This document shows, one piece after another, positions 274 to 25,355 of a stretch of DNA of 32,986 bases; positions within the stretch are counted from its first letter, which is position 1; each line of letters starts with the position of its first letter. The translations under genes were made by a program, and so were the position numbers. Origin of the DNA: Candidatus Nealsoniibacteriota bacterium (GTDB lineage Bacteria > Patescibacteriota > Minisyncoccia > Minisyncoccales > RBG-13-42-11); assembly GCA_019923655.1 (NCBI GenBank), contig JAHXGL010000007.1, positions 1 to 32,986 of the forward strand, given 5' to 3'. The notes beneath the pieces were generated by a model. It made no database searches and was not told where the DNA came from. It saw nothing but the letters and a program-made list of their open reading frames with translations.

Positions 274-2484
274 ATGCAATTAGCTACTCCCATTGAAGAA
301 ATTCCTCGGGTTGGTCCTCAATATCAGAAAAAATTAAAGAAATTAGGGATTAAAACAATCCACGACCTGCTCTTTCATTTTCCTCATCGTTATGAGGAAT
401 TTTCAAACATTGTTCCTGTTTCTGAAATAAAATCCGGGGCAATAAACTCAATTCAAGGAAAAATTTTGGAAATAGAAAACAAGCGGACATGGAAAAAAAG
501 AATGGTTTTAACTCAGTGTTTAGTTGAGGATTTTTCCGGCGCCATAAAGGTTATCTGGTTTAACCAGCCCTATTTAATAAATGTTCTCAAAAAAGGAGAC
601 TTTATTAGTCTGTCCGGAAAAGCAGTTTTGAAAAAAAATGAGATTTATCTTTCCAGCCCGGCTTATGAGAAAATTTCTTCCCTGGCTGATTTTCAAGGAA
701 TTAACCCTAACAAAACAAAAACTACAAAAAAAGAAAAAGGGCTTACTCATACGGGAAGATTAATACCGGTCTATCCGGAAACTGAAGGATTGTCGTCAAA
801 ATGGCTCCGTTATGTTATAAAGCTTGTCCTTACAGATCTCGGAGATAAAATTCTTGACCCTTTGCCGATCAAATTAAGAAAAGAGCATCAACTTATTTTG
901 CTTCAAAAGTCCCTTTGGCAAGCTCACTTTCCTGATTCTCTAATTTTAGCCAAAAAAGCAAAAAAAAGATTTGCCTTTGAAGGTCTTTTTTTTATCGGGC
1001 TTCATATTTTAAGGGAAAAACAAAAATTAGCTAAAGAAAAAGCAATGCCCATTCCTTTTGATTTAAAACTTATCCAGGGTTTTGTTAAAAAATTACCATT
1101 CAAGTTAACCGGCTGTCAGAAAAAATCCATCTGGCAAATATTAAAAGACATTGAAAGGCCATGGCCAATGAATCGTTTACTTGAGGGTGATGTTGGTTCT
1201 GGAAAAACAGTTGTTGCGACAATGGCTATTTTAAACATAGTCAAAGCCGGATACCAAACAGGGTTAATGGCGCCGACAGAAATTTTAGCCAAACAGCATT
1301 TTCAAGAAATTTCCAAGCTCTTAAAAAGCTTTAATTTAAGCATTGGCTTGCTCACAGGAAAGGAGGGTAAGATAATTTCTAAAGAATCAAAATGGCAGGC
1401 AATTAAAATCTCCAGGCAAAAACTTTTGGAAAAGATAATAGCCGGTGAAACAGATCTTTTAATCGGCACCCATGCCTTAATTCAAAAACAAGTTAAATTT
1501 AAAAGATTGGCTTTAGTGGTTTTAGATGAACAACATCGATTTGGGGTAGACCAGCGCGCTCGGCTTTGCTCCTCCCCTGCTAAAGCTTCAACAGACAGGC
1601 AAGAAAAAGAACTGCCTCCTATCCCCCATCTGCTGTCAATGACCGCTACTCCCATTCCCAGAACTTTAGCTCTTACTATTTATGGCGATTTAGACCTATC
1701 TTTAATTGTTGAGCTTCCAAAGGGAAGAAAAAAAATAATTACTAAAATAATCCCGCCAAAAGAAAGAAATAAAGCATATCGGTTTATAAAAAACGAGGTT
1801 AAACAAGGGAGGCAAGTTTTCGTTATTTGCCCTAGAATAGAACCAACGAACAATGAACGGCAAACAGCGAATAATGAACAACTCTTGAAATGGAATGAAG
1901 TGAAGGCAGTAAAAGAAGAATATACCAAATTATCAAAAAAAATTTTCCCAGACCTTAAAATAGGAATGCTTCATGGGAAAATGAAAACTGAAGAAAAAGA
2001 AGAAATAATGAGAAAATTCAAACAAAAAGAAACTGATATTTTGGTTTCAACTTCAGTAATAGAAGTTGGTATTGACATCCCGAACGCAGGAGTAATGATA
2101 ATTGAAGGCGCGGAAAGATTTGGCTTGGCTCAGCTTCATCAATTCCGGGGAAGAGTCGGTAGGGCAGAACACCAGTCATTTTGTTTTTTATTTACCGACT
2201 CGCCAGCCAAAAAAACTTTTCAGCGACTTAAAGCTTTGATGTTTTCTGAAAACGGCTTTGATCTGGCGGAACAAGACCTAAAAATTAGAGGTCCGGGAGA
2301 AGTTTTCGGCCAGAGACAATCAGGAATTCCTGATTTAGTAATGGACTCTTTAGCAGATATCTCTCTGGTTACCAAAACCAGACAAGCGGCAAAAGAAATA
2401 CTAATAGAAGATCCTGGATTAAAAAAATACCCGCTATTGCGGGAAAAAATTCAAGAATTTGAAAAGAAAGTCCATTTAGAATAA
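274..2484 (+). CDS. recG: ATP-dependent DNA helicase RecG
   Basis: 736 aa; GDVGSGKT, MAPTEILAKQH, LDEQHRFGVDQR, MTATPIPRTLALT, GRVGRAEHQSFC motifs; wedge/OB N-terminus. Confidence 0.97.
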   Translation: MQLATPIEEIPRVGPQYQKKLKKLGIKTIHDLLFHFPHRYEEFSNIVPVSEIKSGAINSIQGKILEIENKRTWKKRMVLTQCLVEDFSGAIKVIWFNQPYLINVLKKGDFISLSGKAVLKKNEIYLSSPAYEKISSLADFQGINPNKTKTTKKEKGLTHTGRLIPVYPETEGLSSKWLRYVIKLVLTDLGDKILDPLPIKLRKEHQLILLQKSLWQAHFPDSLILAKKAKKRFAFEGLFFIGLHILREKQKLAKEKAMPIPFDLKLIQGFVKKLPFKLTGCQKKSIWQILKDIERPWPMNRLLEGDVGSGKTVVATMAILNIVKAGYQTGLMAPTEILAKQHFQEISKLLKSFNLSIGLLTGKEGKIISKESKWQAIKISRQKLLEKIIAGETDLLIGTHALIQKQVKFKRLALVVLDEQHRFGVDQRARLCSSPAKASTDRQEKELPPIPHLLSMTATPIPRTLALTIYGDLDLSLIVELPKGRKKIITKIIPPKERNKAYRFIKNEVKQGRQVFVICPRIEPTNNERQTANNEQLLKWNEVKAVKEEYTKLSKKIFPDLKIGMLHGKMKTEEKEEIMRKFKQKETDILVSTSVIEVGIDIPNAGVMIIEGAERFGLAQLHQFRGRVGRAEHQSFCFLFTDSPAKKTFQRLKALMFSENGFDLAEQDLKIRGPGEVFGQRQSGIPDLVMDSLADISLVTKTRQAAKEILIEDPGLKKYPLLREKIQEFEKKVHLE

Positions 2485-2519
2485 ATTTTCCAAATCTTGT
2501 CAGATTTGGAACAATAAAA
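2481..2519. repeat. Palindromic repeat (family A variant) at recG 3' end
   Basis: ATAAATTTTCCAAATCTTGTCAGATTTGGAACAATAAAA; nearly identical 39-mer in rpsB (25208..25246). Confidence 0.85.
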
Positions 2520-4148: not shown

Positions 4149-4277
4149 TTTGGAAGATTCGTTTCCAAATCCTTTCGGATTTGGAAGACCTTCGTTTCCA
4201 AACCCCTTCGTGGGTCTTCCAAATCCCTTTGGGATTTGGAAACGAATTTGGAAGACTCCCAAAGGGATTTGGAAGAC
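4149..4277. repeat. Family A repeat cluster
   Basis: Alternating CGTTTCCAAATCC / GGATTTGGAAGAC units with cores CTTTCGG, CCCTTCGTGGG, CCCTTTGGG. Confidence 0.9.
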
Positions 4278-11269: not shown

Positions 11270-11298
11270 GTCTTCCAAATCCGCAAGGATTTGGAAAC
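11270..11298. repeat. Family A repeat (single unit)
   Basis: AGTCTTCCAAATCCGCAAGGATTTGGAAAC perfect-arm palindrome. Confidence 0.85.
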
Positions 11299-12946: not shown

Positions 12947-14227
12947 TTAAAACTTTTCAATCAAATTATAAATATCCCCTGCTCCCATAATAATCACCTT
13001 TTCTCTTCCTGTAAGGTTCTCTTGCAAATACTTGATTATTTTTTCTTTTGGCAGATAAATTACTTCGGATTTATTAATCGCCTTAACCATTTTTTCAGAA
13101 TTAACTTTCTCTTTAATTTCTTTATCTTCCCTGCCAGCAACTCCATAAATGTCAGTAATTATAATTTTATCAACCAGCGCTTCTCTGAGAGTTTTAACAA
13201 AATCATTAAAAAAACAATGGGTTCGGTGGTATTGATGTGGCTGAAAAACGCACCAAATTTCTTTTTTTGGCCATTTTTCGCGAGCTGCCCTTAAAGTAGC
13301 TTTTACTTCTGTTGGATGGTGCGCGTAATCTGAAATGATTGTTATTTGCTTATCATTAATTACTCCTTTTTTTATTTCAAATCTCCGCCAGGAACCGCGA
13401 TATTCTGACAGGGCATTAAAACTAATCTTATCTGAAACTTTTAAGGCTCTGGCTACTGCTAAAGCTGCCAGGGCATTATCCACATTATGTTTTCCCGGTA
13501 TATTCAAAATCTTCTTTAATTTTTTCTCGTCTTTTGAATTTTTGTATTCGCTTTGAGTAATCAATATGCCGTTCTTTTTTAATTTTTTAGCAAATTTAAT
13601 AAATGCCTTCTTAACATTGTTAAAATTTTTAAAATAATCCAAATGGTCTGGTTCAATATTGGTAATTATTGCAATGTCAGAAGAATAATTTAAAAAAGAT
13701 TCTTCGTGCTCGCAGGCTTCAATAACCAAATATTGGATTTTACCCTGAGCTTGTTGAATAGGCTTCCCTGCCCTATAATTACTATCTCCGAATTCTTTAA
13801 CTTTTGTCCCGACAATTACCGTCGGATCTAAGCCGGCTTTAACTAGCAAAAGCCCAAGCATAGCTGTTGTTGTGCTTTTTCCGTGGGTGCCGGAAATAGC
13901 AATAGTAAAATATTGTTTTGTTAATTCGCCAAGGGCTTGAGGATAACTTTGACACTTAATTCCAAGTTTTTTTGCTTTTTTAAGTTCTAAATTGTTTGGC
14001 CTAACTGCCGGACTATAAATCACTAAATCTATATCTTTAGATATGTTTTTATTTTTTTGGCCAATAAAAATTTTTACCCCTTTCTTTTCTAGGGCTTTGG
14101 TAATTTCAGAAGAATTCAAATCCGAACCAGTTATTTGATAACCTTTAGTAAGGTAATACCTTGCTAAAGCTGAAACCCCAATCCCGCCAATGCCGATAAA
14201 ATGAATTTTTAGTTTTGGAATTGACAT
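12947..14227 (-). CDS. murC: UDP-N-acetylmuramate--L-alanine ligase
   Basis: HFIGIGGIGVSALARYYLTKGYQITGSD, AISGTHGKSTTTAM, YAHHPTEVKATL, WCVFQPHQYHRTHCF. Confidence 0.95.
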   Translation of the reverse strand: MSIPKLKIHFIGIGGIGVSALARYYLTKGYQITGSDLNSSEITKALEKKGVKIFIGQKNKNISKDIDLVIYSPAVRPNNLELKKAKKLGIKCQSYPQALGELTKQYFTIAISGTHGKSTTTAMLGLLLVKAGLDPTVIVGTKVKEFGDSNYRAGKPIQQAQGKIQYLVIEACEHEESFLNYSSDIAIITNIEPDHLDYFKNFNNVKKAFIKFAKKLKKNGILITQSEYKNSKDEKKLKKILNIPGKHNVDNALAALAVARALKVSDKISFNALSEYRGSWRRFEIKKGVINDKQITIISDYAHHPTEVKATLRAAREKWPKKEIWCVFQPHQYHRTHCFFNDFVKTLREALVDKIIITDIYGVAGREDKEIKEKVNSEKMVKAINKSEVIYLPKEKIIKYLQENLTGREKVIIMGAGDIYNLIEKF

Positions 14228-24524: not shown

Positions 24525-25273
24525 AAAACTTTTTTTACGCTTTGGATTGTTTCTTTAACTTTAGTAAGAACATATCTTATTGAGCTTACAGCGTCATCGC
24601 TTCCGGGAATGGGATAATCAACCAAATTTGGATCAACATTGGTATCAGCCACCCCAATAGTTCTAATCCCCTTCATTCTTGATTCTTTTATCGCTAAAGC
24701 GTCTTTCCTCATATCCAAAACAAAAATTGCGTCCGGCAGTATTTCTAAATTTTTTATTCCGCCAAATCTTTTCTCCAGGCCTTGCAGTTCACGATCAATT
24801 TTAGCTCTTTCTTTTTTTGTATATTTTTCCAGTTCTCCCTGTTTTTTCTTTGTCTCTAATTCATTAAAATATTTCACTCTCTTCCTGATAATTTCAAAAT
24901 TAGTCAAGCTCCCTCCTATCCATCTTTCATTAACATAAGGAAGCCCGCATTCTTCAGCCGTATCCCTGACCAAATCCTTTGCCTGGATTTTTGTCCCTAC
25001 TAAAAGTAAAATTTTCTTTTCAGAAATTATTTGTTTTATAAAATCCAAAGCTTCTCTAAATTTGGTAACTGTTTTCTCCAGATCAATAATATGAATCGTA
25101 TTTCTGGTCCCGCATAAATACGGCCCCATCTTGGGATGAGTTCGCGAGGTCCGATGGCCAAGATGCAAGCCGGATTGAATCATCTCTTTGGTGTCAAGCT
25201 TTACATTTTTTATTGTTCCAAATCTGACAAGATTTGGAACATTTATTTTTGCTTTCTTTTTTGTCTCTGCCAT
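24521..25273 (-). CDS. rpsB: 30S ribosomal protein S2
   Basis: MIQSGLHLGHRTSRTHPKMGPYLCGTRNTIHIIDLEKT, YVNERWIGGSLTNFEII, PDAIFVLDMRKDALAIKE. N-terminal extension carries a repeat. Confidence 0.96.
   Translation of the reverse strand: MAETKKKAKINVPNLVRFGTIKNVKLDTKEMIQSGLHLGHRTSRTHPKMGPYLCGTRNTIHIIDLEKTVTKFREALDFIKQIISEKKILLLVGTKIQAKDLVRDTAEECGLPYVNERWIGGSLTNFEIIRKRVKYFNELETKKKQGELEKYTKKERAKIDRELQGLEKRFGGIKNLEILPDAIFVLDMRKDALAIKESRMKGIRTIGVADTNVDPNLVDYPIPGSDDAVSSIRYVLTKVKETIQSVKKVL
25208..25246. repeat. Family A variant repeat inside rpsB N-terminal coding sequence
   Basis: Sense strand ATAAATGTTCCAAATCTTGTCAGATTTGGAACAATAAAA; 38/39 match to 2481..2519; encodes INVPNLVRFGTIK. Confidence 0.88.
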
Positions 25274-25355
25274 AGTATTCCTAACTTACCACATCCCAAA
25301 TTAATGTCAATGTTTTCTTTTGTATTTTTACCAAATTCTGCTATAATAAAAAATA

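Follow-up and report, generated by a model that had tools for sequence, protein, structure and literature searches.

The window analysed here, a 32,986-nt stretch of DNA, corresponds to contig C18 of draft genome G000 (463 kb in 20 contigs, completeness 97.9%). The closest named relatives of its ribosomal protein S2 occur in Nealsonbacteria and Parcubacteria metagenome genomes, indicating that the source is a Patescibacteria lineage. Two genes of the window, rpsB and recG, share a short palindromic repeat (Table 1). The original prediction described a 39-nt repeat, located within the rpsB reading frame, that matches the 3′ end of recG at all positions but one and provides the recG stop codon. 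Both sequences are exactly as stated: segments 2481–2519 (+) and 25208–25246 (−) are identical at 38 of 39 nucleotides, a match for which shuffled sequences give an expectation of 0, and the stop codon lies inside the recG copy. The sense strand of rpsB reads ATA AAT GTT CCA AAT CTT GTC AGA TTT GGA ACA ATA AAA, which is translated as INVPNLVRFGTIK.

Table 1 Genes and palindromic repeats mapped in the window.
Feature	Position	Strand	Remarks
37-nt palindromic element, coding copy in rpsB	25210..25246	-	encodes INVPNLVRFGTI
rpsB, ribosomal protein S2, 250 aa	24521..25273	-	PF00318 E=3.5e-78; TIGR01011
Perfect 12-bp stem with 4-nt loop, inside the rpsB element	25214..25241	-	
37-nt element at the recG 3′ end	2481..2517	+	supplies the recG stop TAA, 2482-2484
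recG	274..2484	+	ends within the element
Second palindrome family, copy (TTCCAAATCC-TTTC-GGATTTGGAA)	4163..4186	.	arm sequence similar, flanks different
Second palindrome family, copy	11273..11296	.	just 3′ of a 364-aa ORF, adjoins a tRNA-Leu gene

The unit common to all copies, aligned in one orientation, is 37 nt long (ATAAATTTTCCAAATCTTGTCAGATTTGGAACAATAA). Flanking sequences differ outside these 37 nt, and the final two bases of the 39-mer agree by chance only. A search of the genome revealed that the two copies of the window are not merely a pair, as eight copies with an exact core are present, while a reversed-pattern control gave none. Seven copies are the same over the 37 nt, and a single substitution sets the rpsB copy apart. 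In a ninth, variant copy, the flanks and arms are retained, whereas the tip of the hairpin is altered. Every copy begins with ATAAAT and ends with CAATAA, so that ATAA is found at both ends, at a spacing of 33 nt; since this tetranucleotide is identical in all copies, a target duplication cannot be told from the ends of the element. As DNA, the element is predicted to fold into a hairpin, with z = −4.6, or −7.1 in the case of the rpsB copy. The 28-nt right part of the unit, searched with up to 3 mismatches, is absent from 246 other genomes of the order, while eight mismatch-free copies occur here. Similarly, the broader pattern TTCCAAATCN6GATTTGGAA, matched by a second repeat family as well, is found 17 times in this genome and never in 117 other genomes. 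No exact match to 25 nt of the element was found in viral contigs. This distribution indicates that the repeat is a recent expansion confined to one Patescibacteria lineage.

Neighbouring genes, named according to NCBIfam and Pfam matches, are contacted by the element in different ways. Two copies are wholly coding, and both are read in the same frame: the rpsB copy and a copy in the C-terminal tail of FtsZ (INFPNLVRFGTIK). The TAA stop codons of uppS and, as read from the sequence, of the acylphosphatase gene acyP are located inside element copies, the latter in the variant one. The start codons of rpsM and acyP share their AT with the end of a copy, the start codon of trmD immediately adjoins one, and an additional copy is found between rplJ and rplL, directly 3′ of the rplJ stop. 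Gene ends adjoining a copy always meet the ATAAAT end. The C-terminus of RecG is not lengthened here, as the RecG protein of a relative (L133) likewise ends with HLE. The element does not correspond to an intrinsic terminator, as the sense strand lacks a U-run and a terminator-like pattern is found at rpsB on the antisense strand only; the flanks of the other copies feature no consistent U-run.

Some neighbouring regions have an unusual organization. Downstream of the FtsZ domain, the FtsZ tail (L001:1329-2657(-), contig C12) appears to be an array of different palindromic repeats, the peptides of which are INFPNLVRFGTIK, FPNSFPNPKGIWN, KVSKSAMDLED and FPNPFVVWKR. The acyP gene is located between two inverted copies of the element, in a cassette-like arrangement (L007 and L025, contig C20, ~13398-13737). 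Coding ends are overlapped by the second family of palindromes (GTTTCCAAATCC-NNNN-GGATTTGGAAGAC) as well (loci L017, L021 and L029 of G000), for instance the C-terminus of a metal-dependent hydrolase, a ComEA-like protein and a 5′-3′ exonuclease.

In our preferred reading, to which we assign a probability of about 0.87, the repeat is a short non-autonomous palindrome resembling the Rickettsia palindromic elements (RPE), which spread recently and left one copy in frame at the 5′ end of rpsB. The sole difference between the rpsB copy and the other seven is a T to G change at 25240, which replaces Phe with Val and turns an uninterrupted stem of 10 bp into one of 12 bp. In a test for uninterrupted stems carried out on S2 tails, the rpsB copy was flagged, and none of 300 codon shuffles reached its score. 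Imperfect palindromes can be corrected by template switching, an established mechanism. The perfected stem could result from such a correction, from selection for the hairpin, or from chance.

In a rival reading, the palindrome is a regulatory site, either a repressor operator or an mRNA hairpin, which was retained near ribosomal and translation genes and encodes a peptide only incidentally. Four copies adjoin translation genes (rpsB, rpsM, rplJ/rplL and trmD), the 12-bp hairpin would form in rpsB mRNA soon after the start codon, in a region with a fold z of −2.6, and the only substitution in the rpsB copy makes the stem perfect. However, the whole 37 nt, including asymmetric unpaired flanks, are conserved, as expected for a recent duplication and not for a binding site. 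Moreover, copies also follow recG and uppS, another lies in the C-terminal tail of FtsZ, and the repeat is missing from every other examined genome of the order. A regulatory role is unlikely.

S2 proteins of the relatives feature a variable, lysine-rich N-terminal tail, such as MAETKKTAKKDEFNLDTEEM or MAEDKKKVKKDEFKLKPEDM. In the window, the tail reads MAETKKKAKI before the insert and KNVKLDTKEM after it, and the tails of relatives match both sides of the repeat. The insert peptide is absent from all 81 other related S2 N-terminal segments, as determined by both segment comparison and alignment. Removal of one unit from rpsB leaves an in-frame tail of 20 residues (MAETKKKAKIKNVKLDTKEM), the same length as MAETKKTAKKDEFNLDTEEM of a relative; because tail length varies among relatives, this match is consistent with insertion rather than conclusive. 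The genus comprises a single genome, and the relatives compared lie outside it. S2 would therefore carry an 11-residue insertion in its N-terminal tail, presumably translated. In the predicted structure, residues 1–18 have pLDDT values <50 and the fold extends from helix 28–34 onward; the insert would thus be placed inside a disordered tail or at its margin. The original prediction envisaged an N-terminal extension preceding the conserved S2 start. The additional residues are indeed present and encoded in frame, but they form an insertion within a tail that relatives also have, and homology begins slightly before the proposed MIQSG start, at residue 28.

The position of the start codon bears on this conclusion. 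If S2 translation began 3′ of the repeat, the latter would be a non-coding element of the 5′ leader. An in-frame ATG is found at residue 31, and intragenic REPs located near annotated N-termini often reflect misannotation (PMC3733652). Yet the residues upstream of the repeat, MAETKKKAK, resemble the S2 N-termini of relatives, such as MAETKKTAK and MAEDKKKVK, and initiation at M31 would truncate the predicted first helix, as well as the TIGR01011 homology, which begins at residue 28. The upstream ATG (25271–25273) is preceded at a distance of 5 nt by AGGA (25279–25282), while AAAGAG abuts the M31 codon with zero spacing. The downstream start was rejected on the basis of the relatives’ N-termini, the position of the first helix and the lack of a spaced Shine-Dalgarno sequence at M31, and is very improbable; the start codon maps upstream of the repeat. 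Although repeats may cause wrong joins in a metagenome assembly of 20 contigs, an artefact is hardly credible and was rejected, as a join of this kind would bring two different loci together, whereas rpsB sequence is found on both flanks of a 37-nt unit shorter than a sequencing read, and rpsB occurs once in the genome.

Other families of the order have palindromes unrelated to this one in the corresponding tail of S2. KPASAKATAGK or KPASAKASAGK is found in genomes G057, G012 and G066, while the S2 tail of G022 features GSKLPTGQA, the product of another unrelated repeat. The case for mobility is weaker for GSKLPTGQA, since only two near-exact copies of the repeat were found, in a genome that is 79% complete. 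Occupied and empty sites can be compared within one genus. S2 is occupied in G057 (KKEKPK-PASAKATAGK-EEKKV) and G012, and empty in G083 (KKEKP-KEEKKEV); in MnmA, by contrast, G057 and G083 have the insert (GGG-PASAEATAGK-PYYV), whereas G012 lacks it (SGG-PYYV). The PASAKATAGK insert is 30 nt long in both S2 and MnmA. Among 21 matches, the proteins that were confirmed by Pfam and carry the insert in frame include S2, RecG, MnmA, a GatA-type amidase, archease, ArgS, the PheT beta subunit, a FemAB-like protein, L23, NusA, RpoC, S16, FtsK and TatD. Most of them are read as PxxAxAxAGK, but the element is oriented the other way round in TatD and at one MnmA C-terminus. Across the phylum, 33 of 287 genomes contain the element. 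Many palindromes of the PASAKATAGK type have no overlying ORF of at least 100 aa at the phylum scale, and the coding bias observed at the genus level should therefore not be generalised. The PASAKATAGK copies in S2, the stem of which contains internal mismatches, are not flagged by the uninterrupted-stem test, and the stem score of 10 at L038 arises from a hairpin other than its GSKLPTGQA repeat. The presence of different repeats at one S2 spot in related genomes looks like the outcome of a recurrent process.

Additional inserts were noticed in these genomes. In MnmA of G057 (L134:697-1902(+)), PASAEATAGK is accompanied by another repeat-like insert, CLRQGYGGQA, while MnmA of G012 lacks both inserts at those sites and features a different one at the C-terminus. 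Ribosomal protein S16 of G083 (L146:1081-1539(+)) has a long extra C-terminal tail ending with PASAEATAGR.

The spread of an RPE-like element could have proceeded as follows. Upon insertion, the element would duplicate an ATAA target, or TA or TAA within it, and add 33 nt, equivalent to 11 codons. Because the ATAA ends are 33 nt apart, insertion with target duplication would keep the frame, and the frame used is stop-free. Copies would persist only at sites where little harm is done, such as intergenic regions, stop or start codons, and disordered tails (the S2 N-terminus and the FtsZ C-terminus), the peptide being presumably near-neutral. By the same process, other families of the order would have acquired unrelated palindromes in S2 and in many further proteins, which suggests that the element works like Rickettsia palindromic elements. 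Transposition, with ATAA as a putative target-site duplication, is the presumed route; mobility is suggested by the dispersal of the element, the identity of its copies, and the occupied and empty sites observed for the sister repeat PASAKATAGK. The view that a mobile palindrome contributed coding sequence to S2 is thus supported by a multi-copy, lineage-specific repeat, with mobility itself as the probable explanation.

RPEs (Ogata et al. 2000; see PMC2229807 and PMC10969869) have also been reported in Wolbachia. They are about 105–150 bp long (105–146 bp according to PMC2229807), although the shorter families RPE-4 and RPE-6 have been grouped with REPs (PMC3733652). The repeats described here share with RPEs an open frame within dispersed palindromes, the in-frame location in unrelated conserved proteins as well as in intergenic regions, and the tolerance of insertions. 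In this genome, the hairpin-forming repeat is dispersed in eight copies plus a variant, and in-frame insertions occur in conserved proteins, absence from homologues having been established for S2. In contrast to RPEs, the elements are 37 nt and ~30 nt long, reside in another phylum, and have targets that include ribosomal proteins S2, L23 and S16. Compared by behaviour with the published descriptions, the element is best read as RPE-like.

REPs of the GTAG and CGTC superfamilies are 20–40-nt palindromes, a range that includes the 37 nt of the element; many lie at gene 3′ ends and supply stop codons, some are found within genes, and the GTAG type is tied to Y1/RAYT transposases (PMC3733652). 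Several phyla have REPs within genes, or REP ends that provide stop codons (PMC3733652), and the word “ribosomal” is absent from the main text of that survey. Unlike REPs, the element has ATAA at both ends and a low copy number. None of the copies carries an unpaired GTAG or CGTC tag at its end, and the element is not classed as a REP for this reason. Bacterial MITEs such as Correia, ERIC and RUP are also small and non-autonomous, with inverted arms, TA in the terminal bases and a possible target duplication, and some are joined in frame to genes, but their length is about 100–200 nt (PMC2229807).

Coding palindromes have hitherto been mainly a Rickettsia oddity, with a few cases in other bacteria. 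The novelty of the RPE-like palindromes described here would lie in their occurrence in another phylum and in a ribosomal protein; no report of coding palindromes in Patescibacteria was found in the literature searched, which is not proof of novelty. As the same S2 spot was hit in several Nealsonbacteria-like lineages, and is either occupied or empty within a genus, it offers a direct view of selfish DNA turning into protein. The process would also explain why some phylogenetic marker proteins have insertions confined to one lineage, which could lead to errors of alignment and annotation across a large group of bacteria. More tentatively, and with less than even confidence, we propose that Patescibacteria host several unrelated families of very short palindromes adapted to protein invasion in tiny, gene-dense genomes. 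Their net insertions would be multiples of three (33 and 30 nt), their coding copies would mostly be read in one stop-free frame, and ribosomal proteins, polymerases and synthetases would be repeatedly lengthened.

The putative mobiliser would be a transposase, of the Y1/RAYT or another type, either acting in trans or since lost. The Y1 transposase profile PF01797, by which RAYT/Y1 partners of REPs were sought, has no match in G000 (97.9% complete); the mobilising enzyme may have been lost, be encoded in the portion of the genome that the draft does not cover, or belong to another type. Of 14 genomes of the order that were tested, 10 have Y1 (HUH) transposases, among them every genome in which S2 carries PASAKATAGK; these enzymes match the NCBIfam model REP_Tyr_transpos with scores below the cut-off. 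At three of four loci read, the Y1 gene is flanked by GAGAACNGTTCTC palindromes, and at two of these (L194 and L195) a related palindrome is also present within the transposase ORF. Within the order, these associations connect coding palindromes with Y1 enzymes, but they do not extend to the element of the window. The RAYT-like Y1 genes flanked by GAGAACNGTTCTC map at L194:1199-2027, L195:1203-1993 and L196:1248-1268.
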